A stretch of 64,000 nucleotides of DNA from Bacteroidota bacterium (lineage in GTDB: Bacteria; Bacteroidota; Bacteroidia; Bacteroidales; F082), in contig WOUZ01000004.1 of assembly GCA_009773165.1 (NCBI GenBank), positions 1 to 64,000 of the forward strand. Direction: 5' to 3'. Below are positions 10,273 to 36,662 of the stretch, piece by piece (within the stretch, counting starts at the first letter, position 1; every line of letters starts with the position of its first letter). A model generated the notes under the pieces. The model saw only the letters and a program-made list of their open reading frames with translations, was not told the origin of the DNA and ran no database searches. The position numbers were made by a program, and so were the translations under genes.

Positions 10273-11385
10273 CTATAATCCCATCAAAATTCCGGCTGCT
10301 CCAACAATAAATGCAACCGTTATGTTGACAAGCTTCACGGCAATGAACCCACGTGGTGATTCTGCCAGCATTGGCAACATACCATGTCCATCTTGAGAAA
10401 TTGAACTTGCCAGCAATATACTCATTGGGAGTACACCTTGGGCAAACAACAATACAAAAACATAATGCGGGCCTGATTCAGGAATAATGCCAATTAGAAT
10501 CGCAAGCACTAAAACAACCCACAAATTTGCAGATATCCATGTTTCAAGATTTACGTATTGATTCATGAAATAAATAACTATCAATACTCCCAGGGTCCAT
10601 AAAAAGATCTTCGCAAAGTGCTTACGTATAATATGTTGCCACAAATGCTCTTGTAAAAAATGTTCTTTTGTTGAAACAATAATAAACATAATAACAGTAA
10701 ATATTCCTATCAAACTGTAGCGAATCCAATCAGCTTCACCGCTGTGATCATGTTCATGGCCATCAACAGCATGACTATGGTCATGCTCCAAATCCACGCT
10801 CCCTCCCATCAAGGTATTCAAATGATGACTTCCATCAATGACACCACTAAAAAGCAAAATCAAAATTCCAGCTACACCAGCAATCAAAAGCGCACGTGTA
10901 AAACTTAAATTTCGAATATTTTCAATCGAACTTGAGGGATGAAACGGATGACATTCTTCGTTTGGGTTATGAAGTGGTAAATCACCATGTCCTTTTAAAC
11001 CAATAAACTTGTTTTTTACTGTAAAATGAACAATTACACCTGAAACGATAGCTATTAGTAGTAAAAAAATATGCAGTTTAAAAGCATCTTCAGGAAACAA
11101 GGAAAACATGATAAATGCTTCATCGCCTGATGTAGCAATCATTGTAGCAACAATAGCCGGAAACATAACAACGCGGTGGATATACAATGAAACCATAGTG
11201 TAAGAACCTAGACAACCTGGAATTATTCCCATTAGTGTTCCAAGTATGATCTGGAGAAAAGGAGAATGCTGAATTTGAAGCGACCATAACCCTCTCGTTT
11301 GTATATTAATATACTCAATGATAATCATCATCCCCATTACAAAAGTGGTGATAATGAAAGTCTGCTGAAGCATTGTTGCTACCAT
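10273..11385 (-). CDS. Putative ten-helix heavy-metal exporter (ArsP_2 type)
   Basis: This 370-residue polytopic membrane protein resembles the ArsP_2/DUF2899 family, annotated as putative metal or manganese exporters. Features are GTLMGIIPGCLGS near the first helices, its inverted echo AILIGIIPESGPH in the second half, and a hydrophilic loop around residues 190-215 rich in His and Asp (HDHSHAVDGHEHDHSG). The two related G-I-I-P-(G/E) segments suggest an internal repeat. It is transcribed away from the Rrf2 gene with 141 bases between the starts. TACTTTTG on the minus strand is a possible -7 box. The transported ion is unknown; the His-rich loop points to Zn, Ni, Co or Mn. Confidence 0.7.
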   Translation of the reverse strand: MVATMLQQTFIITTFVMGMMIIIEYINIQTRGLWSLQIQHSPFLQIILGTLMGIIPGCLGSYTMVSLYIHRVVMFPAIVATMIATSGDEAFIMFSLFPEDAFKLHIFLLLIAIVSGVIVHFTVKNKFIGLKGHGDLPLHNPNEECHPFHPSSSIENIRNLSFTRALLIAGVAGILILLFSGVIDGSHHLNTLMGGSVDLEHDHSHAVDGHEHDHSGEADWIRYSLIGIFTVIMFIIVSTKEHFLQEHLWQHIIRKHFAKIFLWTLGVLIVIYFMNQYVNLETWISANLWVVLVLAILIGIIPESGPHYVFVLLFAQGVLPMSILLASSISQDGHGMLPMLAESPRGFIAVKLVNITVAFIVGAAGILMGL

Positions 11386-11473
11386 AAATTAAAAGTGTGT
11401 TGATTTGAAATTCAATTTACAAAAGTATCTCATTTTTCCGTAAGGATATCTTTGATTTTTTTTTCTGAAAAAG

Positions 11474-11503
11474 TTGGAGATTAAAGTAATCGGAGTAATT
11501 TTG
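11474..11503 (+). promoter_or_regulatory. Promoter of the rrf2 gene
   Basis: TTG (11474-11476), 19 bases, TAATTTTG (11496-11503): a consensus Bacteroidota promoter 24 bases before the ATG. Its last base is the first base of the putative operator. Confidence 0.7.
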
Positions 11504-11521
11504 GTATTTAATTACCTATTA
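11503..11521 (+). promoter_or_regulatory. Putative Rrf2 operator, site 1
   Basis: GGTATTTAATTACCTATTA contains an inverted repeat (GGTA...TACC) and lies exactly where transcription of the rrf2 gene should begin. The same sequence with 17 of 19 positions identical occurs at 33854-33872. Its place between promoter and start codon suggests autorepression. Confidence 0.6.
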
Positions 11522-11526
11522 ACAAG

Positions 11527-11925
11527 ATGTCCAAAATAGTTACACTTACCAAGGGAGCCTCAATTGCATTACACGGAATGATAATCGTTGCCAAATCGGG
11601 TGGCAAAGCAAATGTCATTCAGATTGCTGACATTACAAATAGCTCTAAACACCACGTAGCTAAGATCTTCCAACGATTAGTGAAGGACAACTTTCTTGAT
11701 TCTCATCGTGGTCCAAGCGGCGGTTTTAGCCTAAAAAAAGATCCAAAAAACATATCTCTGCTTGAAATTTATGAGTCTATCGAAGGCAAGATTGAGGTTA
11801 CTTCTTGCCCTCACGATAAACAAATATGTCCATTTAATAAATGTATAATGGACAATGTGACTTTCAAAATGACAAATGATTTCCGCGAGCACTTAAAAAA
11901 ACACAGTTTGGCGGATTATCTTTGA
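11527..11925 (+). CDS. Rrf2-family Fe-S transcriptional regulator (IscR/NsrR-like)
   Basis: This 132-residue protein has an N-terminal winged helix with RGPSGGFSL in the wing, typical of Rrf2 proteins. Three cysteines near residues 94, 101 and 106 (SCPHDKQICPFNKC) lie where IscR, NsrR and RsrR bind their Fe-S cluster, so it should sense NO, redox state or Fe-S/iron status. It sits between two metal-transporter genes and has a repeated 19-bp palindrome in its own promoter. Which member of the family it is functionally cannot be told from sequence. A nitrosative-stress (NsrR-like) role is favoured because the second operator controls the operon next to nrfHA. Confidence 0.88.
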   Translation: MSKIVTLTKGASIALHGMIIVAKSGGKANVIQIADITNSSKHHVAKIFQRLVKDNFLDSHRGPSGGFSLKKDPKNISLLEIYESIEGKIEVTSCPHDKQICPFNKCIMDNVTFKMTNDFREHLKKHSLADYL

Positions 11926-12016
11926 GGCATTCTTTTTTATTTTTTAATCCTCAGCAAAGTAACTTTTTATCCAAAATACTTCATATTAAAGCTATATTTT
12001 TGTAAAAAATGTCGTT

Positions 12017-12784
12017 ATGCATGAGACGCTACTTTGGATCACGCTTCACGCTGATCATCAACACATTACTGTAGGAGCACCTTTTTTAATCGGATTATTA
12101 GCCAGTATTATGCATGTGGTCTCTGGTCCCGACCATTTAGCAGCTGTTACCCCACTCGCGATTGACAACAAATTGAAAGCATGGATAATTGGTCTTGGAT
12201 GGGGTTTAGGTCACACTTCAGGTATGTTGCTAATTGGTGGACTGTTCATCTTTTTTAAGAATTACATCCCTGTCGATGCGATATCAAGTTATAGTGAGCT
12301 CATAGTAGGCTTTATACTTATTGCTATCGGCGTCTGGGCATTATGGAGAATTTTTGGAGGAAATCACGCTCATGCTCATGAGCACCCTCATACTCATCAC
12401 TCTCCAACCGGTGAAGTAATCACACACATTCACGAGCATGATCATCCTGCAGTTAATGTGCATGATCACAGTCACTTATTACCAATTAAACAGTCCTTTA
12501 TTTCTGCAATACTAATTGGGACTCTGCATGGTTTAGCAGGCGTTTCTCACCTAATTGGCATGTTGCCAACGTTGGCGTTTCCGACAATTTCAGATTCTAC
12601 ATTGTATCTTATTGGCTTTGGCATTGGGACAATAGTCGCTATGATCATATTTTCAATACTCCTGGGATTCGTGTCATATAAATCGGATGATATAAAAAAA
12701 CCGTACCTATTCAAAAGCATTCAAATTGTTGGGGCTTCAGCATCTCTGATAGTTGGAATTTATTGGATATCAGCTTATTTCTAA
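12017..12784 (+). CDS. His-rich UreH/NicO-type nickel/cobalt transporter
   Basis: This 255-residue membrane protein has two three-helix bundles separated by a cytosolic or periplasmic loop (about residues 120-155) with some fourteen histidines (HAHAHEHPHTHH, HIHEHDHP, HDHSH). The first bundle carries HVVSGPDHLAA and the second GTLHGLAGVSHL, the H-x4-D-H-like signature of the UreH/NicO/NiCoT families that move Ni or Co. It follows the rrf2 gene on the same strand after 91 bases, with a TATTTTTG -7-like box in the gap. A role in Ni/Co supply or efflux is inferred from the family. Confidence 0.75.
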   Translation: MHETLLWITLHADHQHITVGAPFLIGLLASIMHVVSGPDHLAAVTPLAIDNKLKAWIIGLGWGLGHTSGMLLIGGLFIFFKNYIPVDAISSYSELIVGFILIAIGVWALWRIFGGNHAHAHEHPHTHHSPTGEVITHIHEHDHPAVNVHDHSHLLPIKQSFISAILIGTLHGLAGVSHLIGMLPTLAFPTISDSTLYLIGFGIGTIVAMIIFSILLGFVSYKSDDIKKPYLFKSIQIVGASASLIVGIYWISAYF

Positions 12785-18123: not shown

Positions 18124-18434
18124 ACTTTGACACTTTCCAAATTTTGCTCTTGAACCTGCTTTTTAGTTTTGGCTGTAATTACTATCCAAATCGTTTTCAT
18201 GTTCCTGAAATGACAGGATAATAGTTAAACTTCCCAACATTAATCAATAATTGTAGAGAGTTTACCTTTGTGTTTCATGTTAAGTTATGCTTATATTACA
18301 GTATAACAGTATTTTATGAACATTAAATATTTTATCAATATTTAGGTAATCTAATGCTTTAATTCTTATATATTTGCATTGATATTTATTAAAACAAATG
18401 AATTATATCGTTTTATATTATAAAAATCGATTTT
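18124..18434. other. Gap before the cupin gene, with candidate promoter and weak operator
   Basis: This 311-base AT-rich spacer holds a -7-like TATATTTG at 18369-18376. Ten bases before that is ATTTAGGTAATCTAATGCT (18340-18358), which matches the reverse complement of the Rrf2 operator candidate at 13 of 19 positions, including the core AGGTAAT-N-TAAT. In the SBP-like promoter at 33.8 kb the corresponding spacer is nine bases. I see no gene in the rest of the spacer. Confidence 0.35.
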
Positions 18435-26724: not shown

Positions 26725-28242
26725 CTAATTATTTAGAACTACTTTCACCGAAGCCTCACGTTCAGCTGCTTTCCGTTTCCAAGCGGGGACAATTTCCTCT
26801 AGAAACTCTTTTTTCTCCTGTCTCAATTTGTCCATTGGTAATCCAATATACTCCTGTGCTTTGGCCTTTGTTGAAATATCAGGATACGGTATTTCATCTG
26901 TTAATCCTTTGGATGCCAATAACCTTGCTAACATTACCCTGGCGTTTTGAGCATGTTCAATGGATTTCCCAATCACTCTCGCGCTTTCAACAGGTGAATG
27001 AAACGATCCTCCATGAGACGCTGCTACATAATCCCAAAACCACTGTCCTGCACGAATTTCATACAAAACTGGTTTCATTTCGGTTTCCGTCGCACCATGG
27101 TCCCAAGCTATTTTTGCTTCAACATGCGCTCTTGTTAGCATCTTCTCTGCAGTATGTCGTATTTTAGCAACTTTATTCTGCCGGTCATAAACATTTTTCA
27201 GGAGAGTGGCTTCACTTTCTCTATGACATGTTTGACAGGCTTGTGAAACGTATTTCAAAGGTGATGTTACATGATGATTCGAATATTTCAATCCTCCTTC
27301 GCTAACGTACGGCATATGGCAATCAGCGCATGAAACTCCGCGCTCAGCATGAATTCCTGTCATAAAAACTTCATAATCAGGATGTTGAGCTTTCAACATC
27401 GGCGCTCTGCTAATGGAATGTGTCCAGTCAGAAAAATTAATATCGTCATAATACTTTAACATATTCTCTGGCTCAAAACCATTAACCCATGGAAATGTCA
27501 AATAATTTGGTCGCTCCTCTTTGTTTTGGTTATTAAAATAATATTCCACGTGACATTGAGCGCAAACCAATGAACGCATTTCCTGATGAGTTGCCTGTTG
27601 GATATCCTTGCCCATGGCTGTGTATGCCTCGATCAGTGCTGGCCGCGAAATGGCAAGATCCATTGTTTCCGGATTGTGGCAATCGGCGCAACCAATCGAA
27701 TTAACAATTTCTTCTCCATTTTTCGCCCATTTTCCTGCGTAAAAAGCAGCCGGACTACCCAGCTGATTCATCATTCTGGGAACATCCGGACTTTTACATG
27801 CCCAGCAAGTACTTGGCATTGGACCATCATCCGGTGCTTTTGGGCCACCAGTCCTGAGCGAGTTGTTGATGTCTTCGATGGCATATGAATGGCCTCTTCC
27901 CTGATTATAATCCTTAGAAAAGCCATATCCCGCCCACATGACAACCAATTCCGGACTTTCTTCCAAAACATCTTTCATAGCATTTCCACCATGAGGCGTT
28001 TTGAAATCGGTTTGTTGAGTCTTACGATAGGATTCATATTGCCAGGGGTAATTTTTACCCCACACCTCATTACGAGGCTCAAAATCAGCTATTTTAACTT
28101 TTGGAGCATAAGCAAAAATTGCCTCGGCCCGTCGTTCACTGATAGTTGAAACTAGCAACCCTAACAAAAAAACTGCTGTTAAAGAAATAAAAAACAGTGC
28201 CCAATTCATCCAGGGACTTCTTTTTTTACCAATAATATTCAT
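26725..28242 (-). CDS. nrfA: Ammonia-forming cytochrome c nitrite reductase, catalytic subunit
   Basis: NrfA reduces nitrite to ammonium with six electrons in the periplasm. The 505 residues include an N-terminal membrane anchor or uncleaved signal (about residues 12-33) and five haem sites. The active-site haem has the diagnostic CWACK motif (about 146-150); the others are CADCH (185-189), CAQCH (227-231), CADCH (305-309) and CQTCH (336-340). Length and order are standard. It follows nrfH by 30 bases and ends at an intrinsic terminator. No dedicated haem lyase for the CxxCK site is in the window. NrfA also reduces NO, which fits an NsrR-like regulator acting nearby. Confidence 0.97.
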   Translation of the reverse strand: MNIIGKKRSPWMNWALFFISLTAVFLLGLLVSTISERRAEAIFAYAPKVKIADFEPRNEVWGKNYPWQYESYRKTQQTDFKTPHGGNAMKDVLEESPELVVMWAGYGFSKDYNQGRGHSYAIEDINNSLRTGGPKAPDDGPMPSTCWACKSPDVPRMMNQLGSPAAFYAGKWAKNGEEIVNSIGCADCHNPETMDLAISRPALIEAYTAMGKDIQQATHQEMRSLVCAQCHVEYYFNNQNKEERPNYLTFPWVNGFEPENMLKYYDDINFSDWTHSISRAPMLKAQHPDYEVFMTGIHAERGVSCADCHMPYVSEGGLKYSNHHVTSPLKYVSQACQTCHRESEATLLKNVYDRQNKVAKIRHTAEKMLTRAHVEAKIAWDHGATETEMKPVLYEIRAGQWFWDYVAASHGGSFHSPVESARVIGKSIEHAQNARVMLARLLASKGLTDEIPYPDISTKAKAQEYIGLPMDKLRQEKKEFLEEIVPAWKRKAAEREASVKVVLNN

Positions 28243-28272: not shown

Positions 28273-28842
28273 TTATTTTTTGAGCCAATCAGGCACAGGT
28301 GATGGTAACATCGGGACTCTTGCATAAGGAGTGCTTGACAAACTTTTAACCCTTCCGTGTGGAACTTCGCGGTGGCAATCCCAACACAGGCGATCCTCAA
28401 ATTTTTCATGAAAGCTGCTTGTTTGAACAAGCAATTTTGTATCGGTAATCAAATTATTATGACAGCGGATGCAATTTTCCTGAACTACCCCGATGCCAGC
28501 CTCTTTGATAAAAATGTTCTGTGGCTCTAACCGCAAAGTAAACATTGAAGCATGACGCATCCCATCCATTGCTTTAAAATAGTAAGTCCTGAAAACATTG
28601 TCATGCGGCACATGACAATCGTTACAAGTTGCAACTTCACGGTGTGAACTGTGCTGCCAGGTAGCATACTGAGGTGCCATAATGTGACAATTAACACATG
28701 TAGCCGGCGAATCGGACAGATACGAAAGTGCTTTGCTTGAATACATTGCATACATTCCAAGCCCAACAAAAACACCGATTATGATCACCGCTATTGCTCT
28801 CCATTCAGGTGGTGGTATAAAATATGAAAGCCATTTTTTCAT
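28273..28842 (-). CDS. nrfH: NrfH tetrahaem quinol dehydrogenase, membrane subunit
   Basis: NrfH takes electrons from menaquinol and passes them to NrfA. The 189 residues have one N-terminal membrane helix (about residues 14-36) and four CxxCH haem sites: CVNCH (49-53), CNDCH (73-77), CIRCH (124-128) and CWDCH (153-157), as expected for the NapC/NirT family. nrfH and nrfA form a two-gene operon with a consensus promoter 48-78 bases upstream and a perfect FNR-type palindrome further up. Confidence 0.96.
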   Translation of the reverse strand: MKKWLSYFIPPPEWRAIAVIIIGVFVGLGMYAMYSSKALSYLSDSPATCVNCHIMAPQYATWQHSSHREVATCNDCHVPHDNVFRTYYFKAMDGMRHASMFTLRLEPQNIFIKEAGIGVVQENCIRCHNNLITDTKLLVQTSSFHEKFEDRLCWDCHREVPHGRVKSLSSTPYARVPMLPSPVPDWLKK

Positions 28843-28889
28843 GTGATTTTAATTTAGTATTTCGGTATTTATATTCTTATTTTCCTGTA

Positions 28890-29024: not shown

Positions 29025-30536
29025 TTAAATACCTTTTTTTCGATTTGAAACGCTTTTTCTCAGCCAAATTACGAGGCCAGAAAGCAAAATTAACAGCGTT
29101 AACAAGCCAAATAATGGAATGATTAGAATATAGAATACACCTATCAGCGACTGAAAAATTCGTGTAGTATGAATTTCCAGCGCCAAATTCCATAATGGCA
29201 TTGGAGTTTGTTTCAAAACTTCAGGCATAGGAATTTCATGATTTAGTAAACCTTTATTATACTCAAAAATATACTCTTTACCACTTTGGTTTATCATCCC
29301 GGTTATAAGATATTGTCCTAAAGGTGACCCGGCGGAACTTTTCTGAATAGGCATTTCTCCTGTAATATAATCGATAATCACTTCTTTTTCAGGATTCCAA
29401 AGAAATAAACCATTAAAGCTACCAACCAGAAAATCATCCTCTGATGTTGCTTTCAATACATTAATGCCCATTACTGAAAGTGGAGGTGTTTTCTCGATTT
29501 GGACAGGAACTGAGGAAAATGAGGCATCCACCCGAAAAAGGCCGTCAGCAGTTCCAATGATCCATCCTTTTGATGATTCGTCCCAAACTAAAGCTCTAAG
29601 CCGATCATGCCAACTGTTCGAATGGTTCAATATAGTAAAGGGAATTTTTGAAATTCTTTGATTTGCGATTGCTATCAACAAGGGTGGTCGCAAGAACATA
29701 CCTGTAAAAACAGTTATAAGCAGGAAAAATACTGTCCAGATTCCAACCTTGTTGTGCCACTTAACCGAAAACTTAGTAGCTTTAACATGGTTTTTTGATT
29801 CAAAGTTTTGCTTTCTTCTATTTTTTATCCATCGCGGGAAGAAAAAATAAATATACCCCGTTATAATCAAAAAAATAAGCACTAAAGCCATAAAATCAAC
29901 AATTAACTTACCCGGCAAGCCAAATATTTCGCCACTATGAATGACCCAAAGGGTGCGAAACAATCCAATTTTACCATCATCACTCGATGCATTTGACAAT
30001 TGAACTGTTTTTACCAAATCAATTGTTTCACCAATTTCATAGACGAATATTTCTGATCGTGTCATTGCAAAAAGCGTGTCTTTTCGGATTGACAAATCCA
30101 CAACTCTCTTATCCTTAATATTTTGTACAATATTAGTCCAGTAATCACTTTTTGCTTCTAAAGCATAGAGTCCTGACTGGGTAGCTGCAAATATCCTTCC
30201 ATCGCCTGCTTTCACGAGCTTCATTGTCCTTGCCTGGTCAACTCCATCAGGCAGGCCATTCATATAGGGGAAAAACTCTTCAAATGTGGTGTCGGTTTGC
30301 CAAATCCCAATCGCACCATAAATAAACATCTTACCGTTTTCAAGTTCCAATGCTGAGCGAACTGAAGCATTATTCCAGTTATTGAAATGGTATTCAGCAG
30401 GAAGTATACTCCTGCTTATTTGAATAGATGAAAAAAGCTCTCTGTGATTAAGTATTATTCCTGAGAATGCCCATAAAAGCAAAAAAACACCTAAAACGAG
30501 TGAAAACCAACGATGAATCCATTTCCATTTTCTCAT
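29025..30536 (-). CDS. PepSY-associated membrane protein with propeller-like loops
   Basis: The 503-residue protein opens with WIHRWFSLVLGVFLLLWAFSGIILNHRELF, the PepSY-associated TM signature found in ferric-siderophore reductases and related electron-transfer proteins. Further helices lie near residues 215-235, 265-285 and 465-490. Two large loops contain paired segments (GRIFAATQSGLYAL; GWIIGTADGLFRV; DFLVGSFNGLFLW) that look like blades of a two-component-regulator-type propeller. It is the last gene of the operon starting at 33808 and is followed by nrfHA. A role as a membrane redox or metal-reducing partner is inference. Confidence 0.75.
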   Translation of the reverse strand: MRKWKWIHRWFSLVLGVFLLLWAFSGIILNHRELFSSIQISRSILPAEYHFNNWNNASVRSALELENGKMFIYGAIGIWQTDTTFEEFFPYMNGLPDGVDQARTMKLVKAGDGRIFAATQSGLYALEAKSDYWTNIVQNIKDKRVVDLSIRKDTLFAMTRSEIFVYEIGETIDLVKTVQLSNASSDDGKIGLFRTLWVIHSGEIFGLPGKLIVDFMALVLIFLIITGYIYFFFPRWIKNRRKQNFESKNHVKATKFSVKWHNKVGIWTVFFLLITVFTGMFLRPPLLIAIANQRISKIPFTILNHSNSWHDRLRALVWDESSKGWIIGTADGLFRVDASFSSVPVQIEKTPPLSVMGINVLKATSEDDFLVGSFNGLFLWNPEKEVIIDYITGEMPIQKSSAGSPLGQYLITGMINQSGKEYIFEYNKGLLNHEIPMPEVLKQTPMPLWNLALEIHTTRIFQSLIGVFYILIIPLFGLLTLLILLSGLVIWLRKSVSNRKKGI

Positions 30537-30559: not shown

Positions 30560-30805
30560 TTAATAGCCAATACCAGCTGACTTAACAAATGCAGCATCAA
30601 ATGCATGGCAGGGAGTAACAGCGTATACCATATCGCATTGCGGGCAATGACTTTCGTAGCATTCCATTTCGAAGCTGGTTTGGCAATTTTCGCAAACTAT
30701 GGTTAAAGGCATTGGCATATAATGTTGATCGAATCCCATTTGTCTGACCTTGTTAACAACTAACTGACCATTTTCGAAGCTTCCTGAGCAACCTTCATGT
30801 GACAT
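30560..30805 (-). CDS. Cys-rich mini-protein (zinc-ribbon-like)
   Basis: This 81-residue protein contains seven cysteines: one near the start (HEGCSG), a pair in CENC, then CYESHCPQC and one in TPCHAF. The C-x2-C...C-x4-C-x2-C spacing suggests a zinc ribbon or rubredoxin-like metal site. There is no signal peptide. It lies between the ABC ATPase and PepSY genes on the same strand, 24 bases before the PepSY start. I do not recognise the family by name; a metal-carrying or redox adaptor for the operon's GTPase/ATPase is a plausible guess. Confidence 0.7.
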   Translation of the reverse strand: MSHEGCSGSFENGQLVVNKVRQMGFDQHYMPMPLTIVCENCQTSFEMECYESHCPQCDMVYAVTPCHAFDAAFVKSAGIGY

Positions 30806-30871
30806 AATAAATTATTTTAGAGTGTTGATTTTGAATATATTATCTAATTTCATGCTGAAATCTAACTAATG

Positions 30872-31891
30872 TTATGGAAAGAAATCATCCACAATTGATT
30901 CACCAGAGCGTAGTTTCGTCCGCAATTGCTGAATTCTGCGATCAGCTTCTTCAAGCTTAATTAACATCGATTTTTCAGCTTCAGAAGTTTGCAGCACTTT
31001 GTGAATGCCACCATTTTTGATCACTATTCGTTGATCTGCCATCAATGCAAGAATTGGATCATGCGTAGCCATTAACACAATCTTCTCCTCACCTGTAAGT
31101 ATTTCCAGCGCTTTTTTGCGATCAATGCCCGCATTTTCGATTTCATCTATCAAAACGACCGGGCTCGAGCTAAGCATTGCAGTATCAGCGATCATAAGTG
31201 CCCTCGATTGCCCGCCACTTAACGAAGTAATGGGAGTATCTGCTTTAAACTTCTCTCCTGCCAAATCATTGGCGGCGTCAATTATTTTATCAACAATAAT
31301 TGAAGCATTTGCAATCATTCGACTGCCAGCATGAAGTTCCAAAAATTCCCTTACGGTAAGATCCATAACAAAATTCATGTTTTGCGATAGCTGTGCAACA
31401 AGTTTTTTACCACTTGCGTACCTCCAGTCAGTGGAAGGCTTTGTGTTATTAACCAAAATAGTTCGTGAAGTTGGCGTATCTGCTTGAGCAACCCATTCAA
31501 TATCAGCTAGTAAACGACTTTTACCTGATCCTGTTGGCCCAACAATACTTGTAATGGTACTCTTTTTAAAATTCAACTCAACAAATCCTTCTGGCTGACC
31601 CGATTTATCCGTTCCGGGAAGAATGGTCAAAACTTCAACTACCTGACTGTTAACTCCGCTAAACTCTTGCATCTGACCAATAAAATCATGCAGCTGATCC
31701 AAAAAATGTGTTGCATCAAATGCAGTATCTTCTGCACCCGATTCATCCATTTGAATCATAATTTGTTTCAAAGTCATTGATTCATCAGCCATCATGTTCA
31801 CAGCCTGATTTGTGAAAAAAGCTTCCAGATATGGATATTTTTCCAGTAATTCCAACGGGCTTTTTAATAATAGTTGTTCTTTGCTATGCAT
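30872..31891 (-). CDS. Stand-alone ABC ATPase with N-terminal DUF1858-like module
   Basis: The ATG at 31891, overlapping the GTPase stop by eight bases, is preferred to the TTG at 31906. The 339-residue protein has a complete ABC ATPase: Walker A GPTGSGKS (about 118-125), a Q-loop, signature LSGGQ (about 224-228), Walker B VVLIDE (about 245-250) and the H-loop MATHD. The first 80 residues (SPLELLEKYPYLEAFF) resemble the N-terminal module of the solute-binding-like protein in the same operon, similar to DUF1858/ScdA-N. No permease gene exists here, so it is unlikely to be a transporter ATPase; it may power a soluble assembly reaction as SufC does. Confidence 0.78.
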   Translation of the reverse strand: MHSKEQLLLKSPLELLEKYPYLEAFFTNQAVNMMADESMTLKQIMIQMDESGAEDTAFDATHFLDQLHDFIGQMQEFSGVNSQVVEVLTILPGTDKSGQPEGFVELNFKKSTITSIVGPTGSGKSRLLADIEWVAQADTPTSRTILVNNTKPSTDWRYASGKKLVAQLSQNMNFVMDLTVREFLELHAGSRMIANASIIVDKIIDAANDLAGEKFKADTPITSLSGGQSRALMIADTAMLSSSPVVLIDEIENAGIDRKKALEILTGEEKIVLMATHDPILALMADQRIVIKNGGIHKVLQTSEAEKSMLIKLEEADRRIQQLRTKLRSGESIVDDFFP

Positions 31892-32588
31892 TAGAATTCT
31901 CCTCAAGATTCATTTTTCTGACATTTCCTAATTGATATGATTCACCAATTCGTGTCTCCCCAAGGCAGTACGAACATAAGGCGGAAGGCATCGAAAACCG
32001 GAGTTTCTTTCCTTTCAATGTCTTAACATGTTGTTCGGAATCGATAAACATTGTGCTTAGCTCATATGCTCCCTGTCCAGTTAATCCATTGATGTTCATA
32101 ACTATAGCTGTTGGGTTAACCGCATGAACCCGGGCGGCAAACACTTCTCTCTCAGCCTGGGAAACAATATCACCTTTTGTAATGACAACGATATCAGCCA
32201 TACGAAGCATTGGGCCAATTTTTTTTGGTGTATTGATTCCACTTAAATTATCGATCACACACACAGCTTTTATTTCCTTGACATAAGGTGAGCATCGATT
32301 ACATAAACCTGCACTTTCTGAAACGAGAAGGTCAAAGCCTTCCTTCAATCCCCATTCCAACACTGCTTCTATATTTGAAACAAAATAGTGATCTGGGCAA
32401 AGTTGACCCGACAGTCCTTTTTTTATTGGAATTCCAGCTTTTTCATAAGCAACGTCGTCATCGGTATGCAAACAGTCGAACTTTACTGCTCCAATCTTAA
32501 CTCCGCGTTTCATGAGTGTTTCTGCAGTTTTTATTATTACCGCAGTCTTTCCTGAAGACGGAGGTCCTGAAATTGTTATTAGGTTCAT
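31884..32588 (-). CDS. HypB/UreG-like P-loop GTPase with CxxC pairs
   Basis: The 234 residues carry a Walker A loop GPPSSGKT (8-15), a second switch-like segment LLVSESAGLC and a G4-type TKGD (137-140), the layout of the SIMIBI metallochaperone GTPases HypB and UreG. Eight or so cysteines include LCNRC (about 96-99) and CSYC (about 205-208), which could bind metal. It lies 14 bases downstream of the solute-binding-like gene and overlaps the ABC gene. No hydrogenase or urease genes are present, so its client is not the usual nickel enzyme. The association with an ABC ATPase and a cytoplasmic binding protein is the striking point. Confidence 0.78.
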   Translation of the reverse strand: MNLITISGPPSSGKTAVIIKTAETLMKRGVKIGAVKFDCLHTDDDVAYEKAGIPIKKGLSGQLCPDHYFVSNIEAVLEWGLKEGFDLLVSESAGLCNRCSPYVKEIKAVCVIDNLSGINTPKKIGPMLRMADIVVITKGDIVSQAEREVFAARVHAVNPTAIVMNINGLTGQGAYELSTMFIDSEQHVKTLKGKKLRFSMPSALCSYCLGETRIGESYQLGNVRKMNLEENSNA

Positions 32589-32602
32589 AAAATGATAATT
32601 TT

Positions 32603-33808
32603 TTAAATTGTCTCAAAAGCAAGACGACACGCTTCAAATTCTTGATTAAGGTTGTGAGAGGAGATATAATCCCAACCAAGCCACATAAATTTTGTTCCTT
32701 CCGGGAGTCTGTTATCCACTTCCGGATGTAAGGATGGAAATAATCCCTGATGTGCTAATATTTCAGCTACAGATTTACTTCCAATGAATTCACATACAGC
32801 ATTTTGATAATCTTTTTGCATCGACTTTCCAATCATAAAAATTGGACTTATTATCGCTCCGTCTTTGGGCCATACTGCTTTCATAGCACTTCCTTCTTTT
32901 ACCATTTTTGTGAAAAAATTAGGCATGATGGTGATCGCCGGCCTGTTCTCTTTTAGTCTTTCAGATTTCACCATTTGAGCAGGATGCATACTTTGAAGCA
33001 TATTTTTTCCAAGAGCTGTAATCGCTTTTCGCCCATAAGTTTTGTCAAGGGTAAGTAAAATTGCATTGAACAAATCAAAGTCAGAAACCGGTAAGCTAAC
33101 CGACCGCTCATAAATGGGGTCGAGCAACTCCTCCCATGATTGTGGAATGGGTCTGTCGCCTAAAATTGCCGTGTTTACCAAAAAAACTGCCGGAACAACG
33201 GCTATCATTCCATAACGACCTTGAAGGTCATCCAATTGCAAGTCGGAATTCATGAAAATGGGGTTAATAGAATTCCAATTCAATGGATTTCCAAATTCCC
33301 CTTTCTTTATAAAGCGGCCAAAATAGGCATCTTCAAAAAAGATATCAAATCCGGCCGACAAGTAAATATCATCCAATTCATTAGATGAGGTGGCTGCCAA
33401 CACTTCTTCTTTGATCCAATCGAGGCCCATTGAAGCAGATTTGAGGTCTGTTTGAACAGTTATTCCCTTTGCCCTCAGCTCATTAAAATAATTGTCAAGA
33501 TTCTCCTGCATAGGAATTCTGACAGGACATGGTAACAACCCTTTGATTTTGACCGATGAGCCGTTGGCTTTTTGATTATCAGAAGTTAGTTTTCCGTTTT
33601 CTATTGTTTCTTCAAGAAGATTAACGAAAGCATCTAAATCCAATTGGCGCATTGTCAAAGCAATGCCTAATTGTAAAGCTTTGCCAAATGTGTTACGTTT
33701 TGTCTCATCAGATAGTTGAGTAAAACCATTCGCAATGAACACCTTAAGTGTTTCGGGATACTGCTCCGTAATATCGTATAGCGTTGTCTTTTCATCAAAA
33801 TATTTCAT
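32603..33808 (-). CDS. Cytoplasmic solute-binding-like protein with N-terminal DUF1858-like module
   Basis: The first gene of the operon encodes 401 residues. Residues 1-75 (TTLYDITEQYPETLKVFIANGF) resemble the DUF1858 / hybrid-cluster-protein-associated module but lack the C-x-x-C. From about residue 85 the chain reads as a periplasmic-binding-protein fold of the iron/thiamine type (LPCPVRIPMQENLDNYF, LSAGFDIFFEDAYF, PVSDFDLFNAILL). There is no signal peptide or lipobox, so it is probably cytoplasmic. The promoter carries the Rrf2-type palindrome over its -33 region. The ligand, perhaps a metal complex, is unknown. Confidence 0.75.
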   Translation of the reverse strand: MKYFDEKTTLYDITEQYPETLKVFIANGFTQLSDETKRNTFGKALQLGIALTMRQLDLDAFVNLLEETIENGKLTSDNQKANGSSVKIKGLLPCPVRIPMQENLDNYFNELRAKGITVQTDLKSASMGLDWIKEEVLAATSSNELDDIYLSAGFDIFFEDAYFGRFIKKGEFGNPLNWNSINPIFMNSDLQLDDLQGRYGMIAVVPAVFLVNTAILGDRPIPQSWEELLDPIYERSVSLPVSDFDLFNAILLTLDKTYGRKAITALGKNMLQSMHPAQMVKSERLKENRPAITIMPNFFTKMVKEGSAMKAVWPKDGAIISPIFMIGKSMQKDYQNAVCEFIGSKSVAEILAHQGLFPSLHPEVDNRLPEGTKFMWLGWDYISSHNLNQEFEACRLAFETI

Positions 33809-33836: not shown

Positions 33837-33872
33837 CAAAATTAAACTAATTAGGTATTACATTACCTATTA
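33837..33872 (-). promoter_or_regulatory. Promoter with putative Rrf2 operator, site 2
   Basis: On the minus strand TAATTTTG (33844-33837) is a perfect -7 box. The -33 position has no TTG. Instead it is covered by the palindromic 19-mer at 33854-33872 (plus strand GGTATTACATTACCTATTA), identical at 17 of 19 positions to the site in the rrf2 promoter. AGGTA and TACCT are its inverted arms. The layout suits repression by blocking the polymerase. Confidence 0.6.
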
Positions 33873-34072: not shown

Positions 34073-34085
34073 CAACGAATTCCAA

Positions 34086-34173
34086 TAGGGGTGCCTTAGT
34101 CCGCTGAAGCGGAACAAAAGACAGGCTGAGATCATACCCTTTGAACCTGATCCGGATAATGCCGGCGAAGGGA
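34086..34173 (+). promoter_or_regulatory. Thiamine pyrophosphate (TPP) riboswitch
   Basis: The stretch has the THI-box landmarks in order: AGGGGTGCC, a variable stem TCCGCTGAAGCGGA, GGCTGAGATCATACCCTTTG, AACCTGATCCGGATAATGCC and GGCGAAGGGA. It lies between a consensus promoter and the TonB-dependent receptor gene, with 62 bases to its ATG. High TPP should switch the receptor off. An obvious T-tract terminator is not seen after it, so control of translation is more likely. Confidence 0.95.
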
Positions 34174-34235
34174 AAAAGAAAAGCTCGTTTCCTCTATTGA
34201 TTTATTGGTTATTAAAATCTTTAAATCAATGTGTT

Positions 34236-36662
34236 ATGAAAAAAAGTATTTTGCTATTTATGATGGTAGCCTTTGCGGCTATCCAATTGTTCAGTCAAAC
34301 AAAACTGACGGGGAGAATTATTGAACTTGCATCGGGTGAGGCACTTACCGGGGCGCACATTCGGCTCATTCCATCCAATCAGCATAAAATAAGTGCATCA
34401 GATGGAACATTTGTCTTCAATTCACTTAAGCCTGGAAATCTTCAGATCGAAGTTAGCTTCATAGGTTTTGAGAAGCAACTGCTCAATCTGAATTTGCTTA
34501 ATGATACTTCGATTCAGATTGTTATGCCGCCATCGGCTTTTTTGCAGGACGAAGTTGTTGTAAGTGCATCACGTGTTACAAATAATCAGCCCATCACTTT
34601 CAGTGTCTTATCATCAGAAGCAATACAAAAAAATAATCAAGGGACCGATCTGCCTTATCTCCTTCAATCGACACCATCTGTGGTGGTTAGCTCTGATGCA
34701 GGAGCAGGTATAGGCTATACGAACCTGCGAATCAGAGGTACCGACCTCACCCGAATCAATGTTACTCTCAACGGAGTCCCTGTAAATGATCCTGAATCAC
34801 ATGCGGTTTTCTTTGTAAACCTACCTGATTTGGCATCTTCTGTCGAAAACATTCAGATTCAACGCGGTGTTGGCACTTCGTCGAACGGTGTTGCAGCATT
34901 TGGAGCAAGCATTAATATTAAAACTTCTGACAGATCTGATAAGCCTTTTGGTACTCTGAGCAGCTCAGCAGGTTCTTTCAATAGCTTTAAAAACACACTT
35001 CAATTTGGAACAGGAACAAGTAAAAATGGATTCTCCTTAGATGGAAGGTTGAGCAAAATCAATTCTGAGGGATATATTGACCGGGGATGGTCTGATTTAA
35101 AGTCGTTTTATCTTTCCGGAACATGGGCAAATAAATCTACAATGGTTAAATTGATAGCAACCAGCGGAATAGAACAGACTTATCAATCATGGTATGGTAT
35201 ACCTAAAGATAGTCTTAATTCCAATCGAACCTATAATCCTGCAGGTGAGATAATTGATAATGAGGGAAATAGCCTCGGTTTCTATGATAATCAAACCGAT
35301 AATTATCAGCAAGATTATTATCAGTTTCACCTGGCTCACCAAATTAGTCCATCGGTTTTATTTACAGGGGCAGCTTTTCTTACACGTGGTAAAGGATTTT
35401 ATGAAAGTTGGAAAAACGATCAAAAGCTTAGTAGTTATGGCTATGATGCAGTTCAGGTTGGAAATGAAGTAATAGAACGGACTGATTTAATTCAACAAAA
35501 ATGGTTGGATAATTACTTTTTCGGTGGACAAGCATCTGTGTATTTTACAACTAAATCAACCTCAAACACTTTTGGGGCAGGTTGGAACAGGTATGAGGGT
35601 GATCATTATGGATTGATAAGTTGGGCGAAACATTTTCCAAACACATCTTTAGACACTCCATGGTATTTTAATGATGGTGAAAAAACTGATTTTCACATTT
35701 TTGCAAAGTCAACATACCAGCTAACAACAACTATTGCATTATTCGGCGATTTGCAATACAGGAGTATCGATTACGTAATTGAAGGAATTCATGATGATTT
35801 AGGAGATATTACTCAAAGTCATAACTTTCGGTTTTTTAACCCCAAGGCAGGAATAAACATTAAGTTTTCATCCAGATGGGGTGCATATGCCAGTATTGCT
35901 GTTTCCAACCGTGAGCCTAACAGATCCGTTTACCGTGATGCAGATTCCGGGCAAGTGATTTTACCTGAGCGACTTATAAACTATGAAACAGGAGCTCGTT
36001 TTGAAAGTGCAAAACTAAAATTCGAAACGAATCTTTTTTTCATGGATTATCATAATCAACTCGTTCTCACTGGCAAAATTAATAACGTTGGTTCAGCAAT
36101 TCTTACCAATGTTGAAACAAGTTACAGGGCAGGTTGGGAAACAAGTGCATCATTGATGATCACACCAAAAATTCAGTTTTCCGGACATTTTACTCTGAGC
36201 ACCAACAAAATAAAGAACTTTACCGAATACGTTGATAATTGGAATTACTGGGATGATCCGGAAACCGAACCGTATCAGTTTGTTTTCGAACGAGGAACCA
36301 CTGATATTTCATTTTCACCAAATGTTACAGCTTCAGCAAGTGTAAGCTGGATGCCGTTTTCAAATTTCGAAATAGCATATCAGTCCCAATATGTTAGCAG
36401 ACAATTTATTGACAATACCTCTAATGAATATCGGAGTATTGACCCATATCACATTGGAAACATGCGTGTTAATTATGAATTAACGAATTCCGTCTTCAGA
36501 AAAACAACAATTGGTTTACAAATGAATAATCTTTTCAACACAAAGTACGAAACGAATGCATGGGTTTACAGATACTATTACAATAACGAGCCATATCAAC
36601 TTGATGGTTATTTTCCACAAGCTGGTTTTCATTGGATGCTTCAGTTGACATTGGGAATTTAA
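34236..36662 (+). CDS. TonB-dependent receptor under TPP control (thiamine uptake)
   Basis: I chose the ATG at 34236 because it gives a proper signal peptide (KKSILLFMMVAFAAIQLFSQ) and lies outside the riboswitch; the longer frame starts inside the leader. After a carboxypeptidase-regulatory-like domain (about 20-100: LTGRIIELASGEALTGAHI), a plug domain (about 105-230) includes NLRIRGTDLTRINVTLNGVP and IQIQRGVGTSSNGVAAFGAS. The barrel follows and ends in HWMLQLTLGI. The riboswitch identifies the cargo as thiamine or a precursor. It stands alone: no inner-membrane thiamine transporter or thi genes follow. Confidence 0.9.
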   Translation: MKKSILLFMMVAFAAIQLFSQTKLTGRIIELASGEALTGAHIRLIPSNQHKISASDGTFVFNSLKPGNLQIEVSFIGFEKQLLNLNLLNDTSIQIVMPPSAFLQDEVVVSASRVTNNQPITFSVLSSEAIQKNNQGTDLPYLLQSTPSVVVSSDAGAGIGYTNLRIRGTDLTRINVTLNGVPVNDPESHAVFFVNLPDLASSVENIQIQRGVGTSSNGVAAFGASINIKTSDRSDKPFGTLSSSAGSFNSFKNTLQFGTGTSKNGFSLDGRLSKINSEGYIDRGWSDLKSFYLSGTWANKSTMVKLIATSGIEQTYQSWYGIPKDSLNSNRTYNPAGEIIDNEGNSLGFYDNQTDNYQQDYYQFHLAHQISPSVLFTGAAFLTRGKGFYESWKNDQKLSSYGYDAVQVGNEVIERTDLIQQKWLDNYFFGGQASVYFTTKSTSNTFGAGWNRYEGDHYGLISWAKHFPNTSLDTPWYFNDGEKTDFHIFAKSTYQLTTTIALFGDLQYRSIDYVIEGIHDDLGDITQSHNFRFFNPKAGINIKFSSRWGAYASIAVSNREPNRSVYRDADSGQVILPERLINYETGARFESAKLKFETNLFFMDYHNQLVLTGKINNVGSAILTNVETSYRAGWETSASLMITPKIQFSGHFTLSTNKIKNFTEYVDNWNYWDDPETEPYQFVFERGTTDISFSPNVTASASVSWMPFSNFEIAYQSQYVSRQFIDNTSNEYRSIDPYHIGNMRVNYELTNSVFRKTTIGLQMNNLFNTKYETNAWVYRYYYNNEPYQLDGYFPQAGFHWMLQLTLGI

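Follow-up and report, generated by a model that had tools for sequence, protein, structure and literature searches.

The closest described relatives of the system reported here are found among machineries for metal-centre insertion and repair, among transporters and among regulons. Nickel is inserted by the pairs HypA/HypB and UreE/UreG; HypA starts with M-H-E and carries two CxxC motifs (PMC7055735, in its accessible text), and SufC is the soluble ATP-binding cassette (ABC) ATPase of SUF (SufBCD) Fe-S assembly (PMC9164220, in its accessible text). The HcpR regulon comprises hcp and frdX and, in some delta-proteobacteria, nrfHA; the HcpR2 operator consensus is GTAACN4GTTAC, and in Fusobacterium nucleatum and most Bacteroides hcp is the only predicted member of the HcpR2 regulon (PMC1274295, in the part accessible). 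Further points of comparison are the ABC importers of the FbpABC/FutABC, pyridoxal 5'-phosphate (PLP) and PotABCD class and the RIC/ScdA/YtfE proteins of iron-centre repair. A cassette of four genes that shares something with each of these lies in a 64,000-nucleotide stretch of Bacteroidota bacterium DNA (GTDB lineage Bacteroidales; F082), namely positions 1 to 64,000 of the forward strand of contig WOUZ01000004.1 in GenBank assembly GCA_009773165.1. This whole stretch is called the window below, and the cassette genes are:

32603 to 33808, minus strand: gene 1, 401 amino acids, a DUF1858 module (residues 5-62) followed by a solute-binding fold (residues ~84-401)
31884 to 32588, minus strand: gene 2, 234 amino acids, a GTPase of the HypB/UreG class
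30872 to 31906, minus strand: gene 3, 344 amino acids from a TTG start, a soluble ABC ATPase with an N-terminal module of ~100 residues
30560 to 30805, minus strand: gene 4, 81 amino acids with seven Cys, a small protein that is HypA-like at the level of motifs

Protein 1 matches the Pfam models DUF1858 (2e-12) and SBP_bac_6 (3e-72), protein 2 the CobW/HypB/UreG domain PF02492 (E 7e-12; 45.7 bits, above the cut-off of 20.7) and protein 3 ABC_tran (4e-16). The intergenic gaps from gene 1 to gene 4 are 14, -23 and 66 bases; gene 3 has an in-frame ATG five codons past its TTG, at 31891, which is the likely start and changes the second gap to -8. An earlier account made from the sequence alone (the sequence-only reading) described four packed genes, a GTPase with two CxxC pairs, a complete ABC ATPase and an 81-residue protein with seven Cys, and the open reading frames, Pfam matches and invariant motifs agree with that description. 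We consider it highly probable that the cassette is a conserved, soluble multi-protein system linked to nitric oxide (NO) stress. It is further proposed, with a probability that we put at a little over 0.4, that this system is a HypA/HypB-like machine for metal delivery or repair, equipped with an ABC/carrier module and induced by NO or nitrite. A bolder version, which we hold as doubtful, is that it represents a hitherto undescribed type of machine for assembling or repairing metal centres: a binding protein of importer type and an ABC ATPase would have been recast as cytosolic carrier and motor and, with a HypA/HypB-like GTPase module, would rebuild metalloenzymes under NO stress in anaerobes.

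Scanning with the GTPase yielded 484 confirmed hits, of which the closest 80 loci were analysed, distant contexts being under-sampled; 46 of the 80 have 4 kb on both sides, many end close to the cassette, and the phylum of each locus was assigned by hand from record titles. All four genes are present in 62 of the 80 loci, on one strand and in the order binding protein, GTPase, ABC protein, Cys protein in 62/62, more than chance would give; ten loci hold the first three genes without the small one, and eight are incomplete, mostly at contig ends. The loci come from anaerobes and are spread over eight or nine phyla (Bacteroidales with Marinifilaceae, Spirochaetota, Desulfobulbaceae, Fusobacteria, Bacillota, Cloacimonadota, Fermentibacterota, Aminicenantes and Acidobacteria), and named carriers include Fusobacterium vincentii, Labilibaculum, Marinifilum, Ancylomarina, Desulfobulbus rhabdoformis, Tepidibacter and Dethiosulfatibacter. 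Outside the Bacteroidales the GTPase is still 74-79% identical, and mean column identity is 82% for the GTPase (n=34), 72% for the small protein (n=36), 66% for the ABC protein (n=38) and 56% for the binding protein (n=47). A GTPase relative at E<=1e-60 was found in 20/299 Bacillota and 10/247 Desulfobacterota genomes, distant sub-clades counted in, and the binding protein in 23/149 relatives of the window organism, the window genome, which has one copy, included in that count. No description of such a four-gene set was found in the searchable literature, which is not proof of its absence from print.

Like HypA/HypB and UreE/UreG, the cassette has a SIMIBI-type GTPase, in which a C-P-x-H motif stands near the C-P-H of UreG. 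The GTPase features the P-loop GPPSSGKT, C64-P-D-H67, C96xxC99, TKGD and C205xxC208; all 34 sequences compared keep C-P-D-H and both pairs, C96/C99 and C205/C208, and the protein aligns to the UreG and HypB structures with its invariant C64-P65 on the C-P of UreG (recA matches in the structure comparison were repeated weak matches in concatemers and were disregarded). Unlike its counterparts in the nickel-insertion pairs, it stays far below the curated cut-offs (47.9 against 121.2 bits for HypB TIGR00073 and 23.5 against 204.2 bits for UreG TIGR00101), and a binding-fold carrier and an ABC ATPase are added to it. The small protein has an M-S-H-E start, C6, C38xxC41, C54xxC57 and C66-H67; its homologs start with M-H-(D/E/N)-G-C or M-S-H-(D/E)-G-C in 65/67 sequences, the other two with M-S-V-H, and the four CxxC Cys are invariant in 36 sequences. 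An N-terminal Met is removed before Ser; with this removal assumed, the protein has the HypA trait of a His at mature position 2 together with CxxC-Xn-CxxC. It thus resembles HypA in its M-H start and two CxxC pairs, a likeness at motif level, but lacks most of HypA and is missing from some copies of the cassette. The metal-chaperone flavour given to the cassette in the sequence-only reading is strengthened by the UreG-like C-P motif and the HypA-like N-terminus. Its reference to SufC-type ATPases was not borne out: the cassette shares with SUF a soluble ABC ATPase but differs from it by a GTPase and a binding-fold protein, and no SufC model is among the matches listed (25 of 123 NCBIfam).

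The binding protein shares the SBP_bac_6 fold, and the cassette an ABC ATPase, with the importers mentioned above, but the cassette has no signal peptide or permease, and the fold is fused to DUF1858 and accompanied by a metallo-GTPase. Conserved motifs of the family are LLPCPxRxP, MPxFFT and WPxDGAI, and the fold resembles those of PLP-, ferric- and sugar-phosphate-binding proteins; the predicted model (pLDDT, a per-residue confidence score, 88) would belong to the P5PA/FutA/FbpA fold class, with P5PA and FutA as best matches. FbpA binds iron through two tyrosines, and a Fe(III)-tyrosinate site is unlikely in the cassette protein because an invariant FF replaces them at the corresponding positions. 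A hydrophobic N-terminal stretch was detected in 0/47 binding-protein sequences, in comparison with 4/4 exported solute-binding proteins (SBPs) used as controls, in keeping with the earlier view of a cytoplasmic protein devoid of an export signal. Across 38 sequences of the ABC protein, the Walker A, LSGGQ, Walker B and H-loop motifs do not vary except at P124 of Walker A. The sequence-only reading also gave the binding protein and the ATPase a similar DUF1858/ScdA-like module; DUF1858 is evident in the former, and the likeness of the two N-terminal modules is weak (hhalign 53%, E 1.4e-4), so a common module is only suggestive. DUF1858, which we take to be prismane-associated and to resemble ScdA_N, connects the cassette with RIC/ScdA/YtfE and other DUF1858 proteins, as does the NO-stress setting; unlike in RIC/ScdA/YtfE, the module is fused to a solute-binding fold, and no hemerythrin-like domain was found in the Pfam scan.

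The absence of a permease from the set, also claimed earlier, holds: four importer-permease queries matched in 4/80 loci, all from Spirochaetota, and in each case on the opposite strand as part of a separate transporter. An ordinary importer was rejected on the lack of an export signal and of a permease within the set. ABC-2 exporter permeases, outside the reach of those four queries, occur with their own ATPase farther from the cassette in some loci, namely on the opposite strand in 14 loci of cluster 8 (one member checked) and on the same strand 1.6 kb upstream in Vallitalea (L058); the gene row of L080 resembles an ABC-2 exporter set by look. A Sao-type (selenoprotein-linked) transporter was also considered and set aside, its permease scoring weakly only and the Sao literature listing being silent on the cassette. 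According to the sequence-only reading, a permease always accompanying the genes would make the cassette an ordinary importer; none does so in the main clade, while sub-clades in Bacillota and Desulfobacterota adjoin importers of FecBCD, SsuABC or TonB type that have their own SBP and ATPase. In Bacillota, the neighbours of GTPases of 50-66% identity are importers of FecBCD or SsuABC type, a methyltransferase and Crp genes. Loci L121-L127 are Bacillota paralogues with a GTPase, an ABC protein and a small binding protein next to SsuABC/FecBCD importers, some with an S-adenosylmethionine (SAM) methyltransferase, and the one small binding protein scanned from these loci gave no DUF1858 match. In a Desulfobacterota genome that holds an nrf-linked copy too, a related GTPase-ABC-binding-protein set (L139; G693 contig 31, 2648-15064), its GTPase in the same 50-66% identity range, stands in a row with a TonB receptor, a FecBCD-type importer, nifH, nifX and a nifA-like gene, possibly a metal-supply cluster for nitrogenase. 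The cassette of Fusobacterium vincentii (L157) is followed by two ZnuA-type proteins, an ABC-3 permease and an ATPase.

The link with NO comes from gene neighbourhoods, predicted operators and nearby regulator genes. The hcp gene lies within 4 kb of the cassette in 14/80 loci from five groups (Bacteroidales 2, Spirochaetota 1, Desulfobacterota 2, Bacillota 5 and Cloacimonadota 4), in 12 of the 14 within 609 bases. It is nearby in 8 of the 10 Bacillota carriers whose GTPase is at least 68% identical, and no Hcp is among the genes listed beside the cassette in the other 10 Bacillota carriers. NrfA is encoded within 6 kb in 8/18 loci of the window's group; a Desulfobacterota copy (L138) has an nrf-like pair (216 of 595 bits) ~2 kb away, and a Desulfobulbus copy a multihaem cytochrome and a NapC/NrfH-like gene on the opposite strand. 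The usual partner of the cassette in other phyla is hcp, and nrfHA is its neighbour in the Bacteroidales lineage of the window. As to metals, four Spirochaetota copies (L031, L035, L054 and L074) have NifU and class-V aminotransferase (cysteine-desulfurase-like) genes a few kb away on the opposite strand, and a heavy-metal-type P-type ATPase gene is found near 4/80 loci, in Dethiosulfatibacter directly upstream and with an ArsR gene. These neighbours, together with the importer-linked relatives, fit a metal or metal-complex substrate without naming the metal.

The HcpR2 consensus is present within 300 bases upstream of the cassette in 24/90 promoters (13 Marinifilaceae, 6 Bacillota, 2 Spirochaetota and one each in Fusobacteriota, Aminicenantes and Acidobacteria), where 0.24 would be expected from the same loci; against a Markov control the figures are 21/71 and a mean of 0.02. 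Within 1.5 kb upstream, 29/80 loci have a site (~1.2 expected at the 0.24-in-90 rate). The site in Fusobacterium vincentii is at -104, sites also precede hcp in L080 and L133, and several of the "background" sites lie in front of hcp, of the first gene of an operon or of a start that had been set wrongly. In one Desulfobulbaceae copy, the delta-proteobacterial site TTGACN4GTCAA is found at -173. The cassette resembles members of the HcpR regulon in its predicted HcpR2 operator and hcp neighbourhood, but it goes unmentioned in the accessible part of PMC1274295. The sequence-only reading had suggested a role in nitrogen-oxide respiration; the nitrogen-oxide link stands, and nitrite respiration as such gives way to NO defence because other phyla have an hcp neighbour and an HcpR2 operator.

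We propose the following logic for the machine. The GTPase would bind metal at C64-P-D-H67 and hand it over, gated by GTP, to the small HypA-like protein with its M-H start and zinc ribbon, where that protein is present. The cytosolic solute-binding-fold protein would hold the metal or a metal complex, replacing a periplasmic carrier, and the soluble ABC ATPase may power loading or release by analogy with SufC on its scaffold; through their N-terminal modules, carrier and ATPase would dock to one another or to the client. The proteins served are assumed to be NO-sensitive metalloenzymes, Hcp where it is present and another enzyme in Hcp-less genomes such as that of the window; HcpR2 would act as the regulator in several phyla, and an Rrf2 protein in the lineage of the window. 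Nickel is a candidate metal by family precedent and iron by context; we infer the metal, the client and the direction of transfer alike. It is largely unexplained how NO-damaged metal centres are kept or rebuilt in anaerobes, and a multi-phylum module with HcpR2- or Rrf2-type operators beside hcp or nrfHA offers a genetic handle on this question; it is also a case in which solute-binding and ABC folds apparently act without a membrane partner, beside a metallo-GTPase.

A number of observations weigh against the proposed machine. The metal and NO ties of its proteins come from sequence and gene context, and the HcpR2 sites are consensus matches, that is, predicted operators, of which close Marinifilaceae relatives supply 13/24 and 18/29; the window has no HcpR2 site even at one mismatch. 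When the C-P-D-H of the GTPase is set against the C-P-H of UreG, the UreG His aligns with D66 and not with H67. The small protein falls below the HypA cut-offs (Pfam 18.3 against 28.9, E 0.0025; NCBIfam 14.5 against 88.1), and its confident predicted model gave no PDB fold match at E<=0.001. An obligatory HypA/HypB pair is contradicted by the copies that do without the small protein: of the 72 loci holding the other three genes, 10 gave no match for it, and 7 of these 10, some Hcp-linked Bacillota copies included, have at least 2 kb past the ABC gene (L067, L075, L076, L077, L082, L084 and L090); nor was it found in the Fusobacterium vincentii cassette. As for the enzyme served, neither Hcp nor carbon monoxide dehydrogenase (CODH) was found in the window genome, which is 98.85% complete; Hcp is no commoner among carriers of the window's family (8/23) than among non-carriers (36/126), and neither NrfA nor Hcp was found in carriers G013, G015 (83% complete) and G039.

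The last points bear on the alternative that the cassette is a maturation or repair factor dedicated to the hybrid cluster of Hcp, for which, to our knowledge, no dedicated assembly factor is known, and that hcp-less copies are relics or serve a distant homologue. The proximity of hcp in five groups, mostly within 609 bases, the HcpR2 sites common to cassette and hcp, and the occurrence of Hcp in 36/45 genomes behind the diverse loci and of some Hcp match in 19/20 Bacillota carriers, compared with 241/299 of the whole sample, all speak for it. However, six further carriers of the window's genus share with the window genome an intact cassette and no detected Hcp, an Hcp match is absent in 15/23 carriers of the family, the window genome among them, so that the cassette does not occur only with Hcp, and in Aminicenantes L034 the HcpR2 site is present and no Hcp was found; many genomes, conversely, have Hcp without the cassette (in Bacillota, Hcp over the cut-off in 212/299 and the GTPase in 20/299). 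This explanation is decidedly unlikely, and Hcp as sole client was rejected on its absence from the window genome and the lack of a genome-level association in the family. For the same reasons the metal-delivery machine would serve, or also serve, a client other than Hcp. NrfA (E<1e-50, hand count) is present in 19/23 carriers and 44/126 non-carriers, a difference that phylogeny alone could explain. CODH was rejected as the client of a CooC/T/J-type maturation: it is over the cut-off in 11/52 carriers and in none of them near the cassette.

The cassette might instead act as a sink, the cytosolic carrier binding free metal, a metal-nitrosyl or another product of NO damage that the NTPases pass on or dispose of. 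A cytosolic binding fold with conserved aromatic residues would suit this role, as would the P-type ATPase genes and the ArsP_2/arsenic-efflux and weakly RcnA-like genes that flank the predicted regulator gene of the window (ArsP_2 recurs in the L017 row); but a sink has little need for a GTPase, an ABC ATPase and a HypA-like protein together, and the ArsP_2 cluster is found in 5 and the P-type ATPase in 4 of the 80 loci, which leaves this option unlikely. A switch could also be built from the binding fold, the NTPases and the small Zn-ribbon protein: a ligand bound by the carrier would gate the NTPases, which would control another protein without any metal being moved. The N-terminal modules do resemble docking domains; the invariance of metal-type motifs in both the GTPase and the small protein argues against such a sensor, which we judge very unlikely. 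The least probable of the explanations weighed here is the soluble half of an ABC importer that uses a permease encoded elsewhere. It is suggested by a binding-fold protein and an ABC ATPase in one gene row, by the sub-clades next to FecBCD/SsuABC and by the ZnuABC-type genes after the Fusobacterium vincentii cassette, yet a signal peptide is missing in 47/47 sequences, the few importer permeases matched lie on the opposite strand, and the importers close by come with an SBP and an ATPase of their own.

In the window itself, the cassette is accompanied by the following features:

29025 to 30536, minus strand: PepSY-TM membrane protein gene, 23 bases past gene 4
28273 to 28842, minus strand: nrfH, nitrite reductase small subunit, after the PepSY-TM gene
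26725 to 28242, minus strand: nrfA, ammonia-forming cytochrome c nitrite reductase, after nrfH
33852 to 33869, no strand assigned: predicted operator TAGGTATTACATTACCTA, at -61 to -44 relative to the start codon of gene 1
11501 to 11518, no strand assigned: operator-like site with one mismatch in the promoter of the Rrf2 gene, second best in the window
11527 to 11925, plus strand: Rrf2-family regulator with C-x6-C-x4-C (NsrR/IscR-like), the predicted cassette regulator

Among the 80 loci, the PepSY-TM match is restricted to the window's Bacteroidales group. The predicted operator TAGGTATTACATTACCTA, a palindrome, matches TARGTAN6TACYTA exactly, as no other site in the 4.38 Mb genome does (the reversed pattern has 5). 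With at most one mismatch the pattern is found in 10/16 related cassette promoters and in 11/207 other genes, 4 of these 11 being nrfH; with at most two, in 15/16 and 23/207. A weight matrix built from the cassette promoters scores the site at 11501-11518 at 20.4, the maximum of 20 Markov windows being 17.4, and autoregulation of the Rrf2 gene through this site is predicted. The Rrf2 protein is 76% identical to the one heading the cassette gene row in L017; Rrf2 genes are near the cassette in 17/80 loci, and 21/22 neighbouring Rrf2 sequences (two of them duplicate fetches) have C-x6-C-x4-C. Crp-family genes adjoin other copies of the cassette. The nrfH promoters of relatives in the window's lineage score at least 9.0 in 8/9 cases versus 6/111 for other genes; the site upstream of nrfH in the window (28862-28879) scores 13.4, within the random range, and is weak. 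Because of the predicted operators at the cassette, at Rrf2 and at the nrfH promoters of relatives, Rrf2 probably controls the cassette, itself and nrfHA in this lineage.

The third-best operator-like site in the window (18343-18360) scores 15.2, within the random range, with no gene start close by. The region of the Rrf2 gene (10273-12784) holds on its two sides a gene of the arsenic-efflux/ArsP_2 family, above the NCBIfam cut-off, and a weakly RcnA-like transporter gene; in L017 an ArsP_2 gene precedes Rrf2 and the cassette. Upstream of gene 1, a thiamine pyrophosphate (TPP) riboswitch (RF00059, 69.2 bits; 34077-34190, plus strand) precedes a divergent gene at 34197-36662, a TonB-receptor-like open reading frame by look, which is likely a thiamine uptake gene separate from the cassette.

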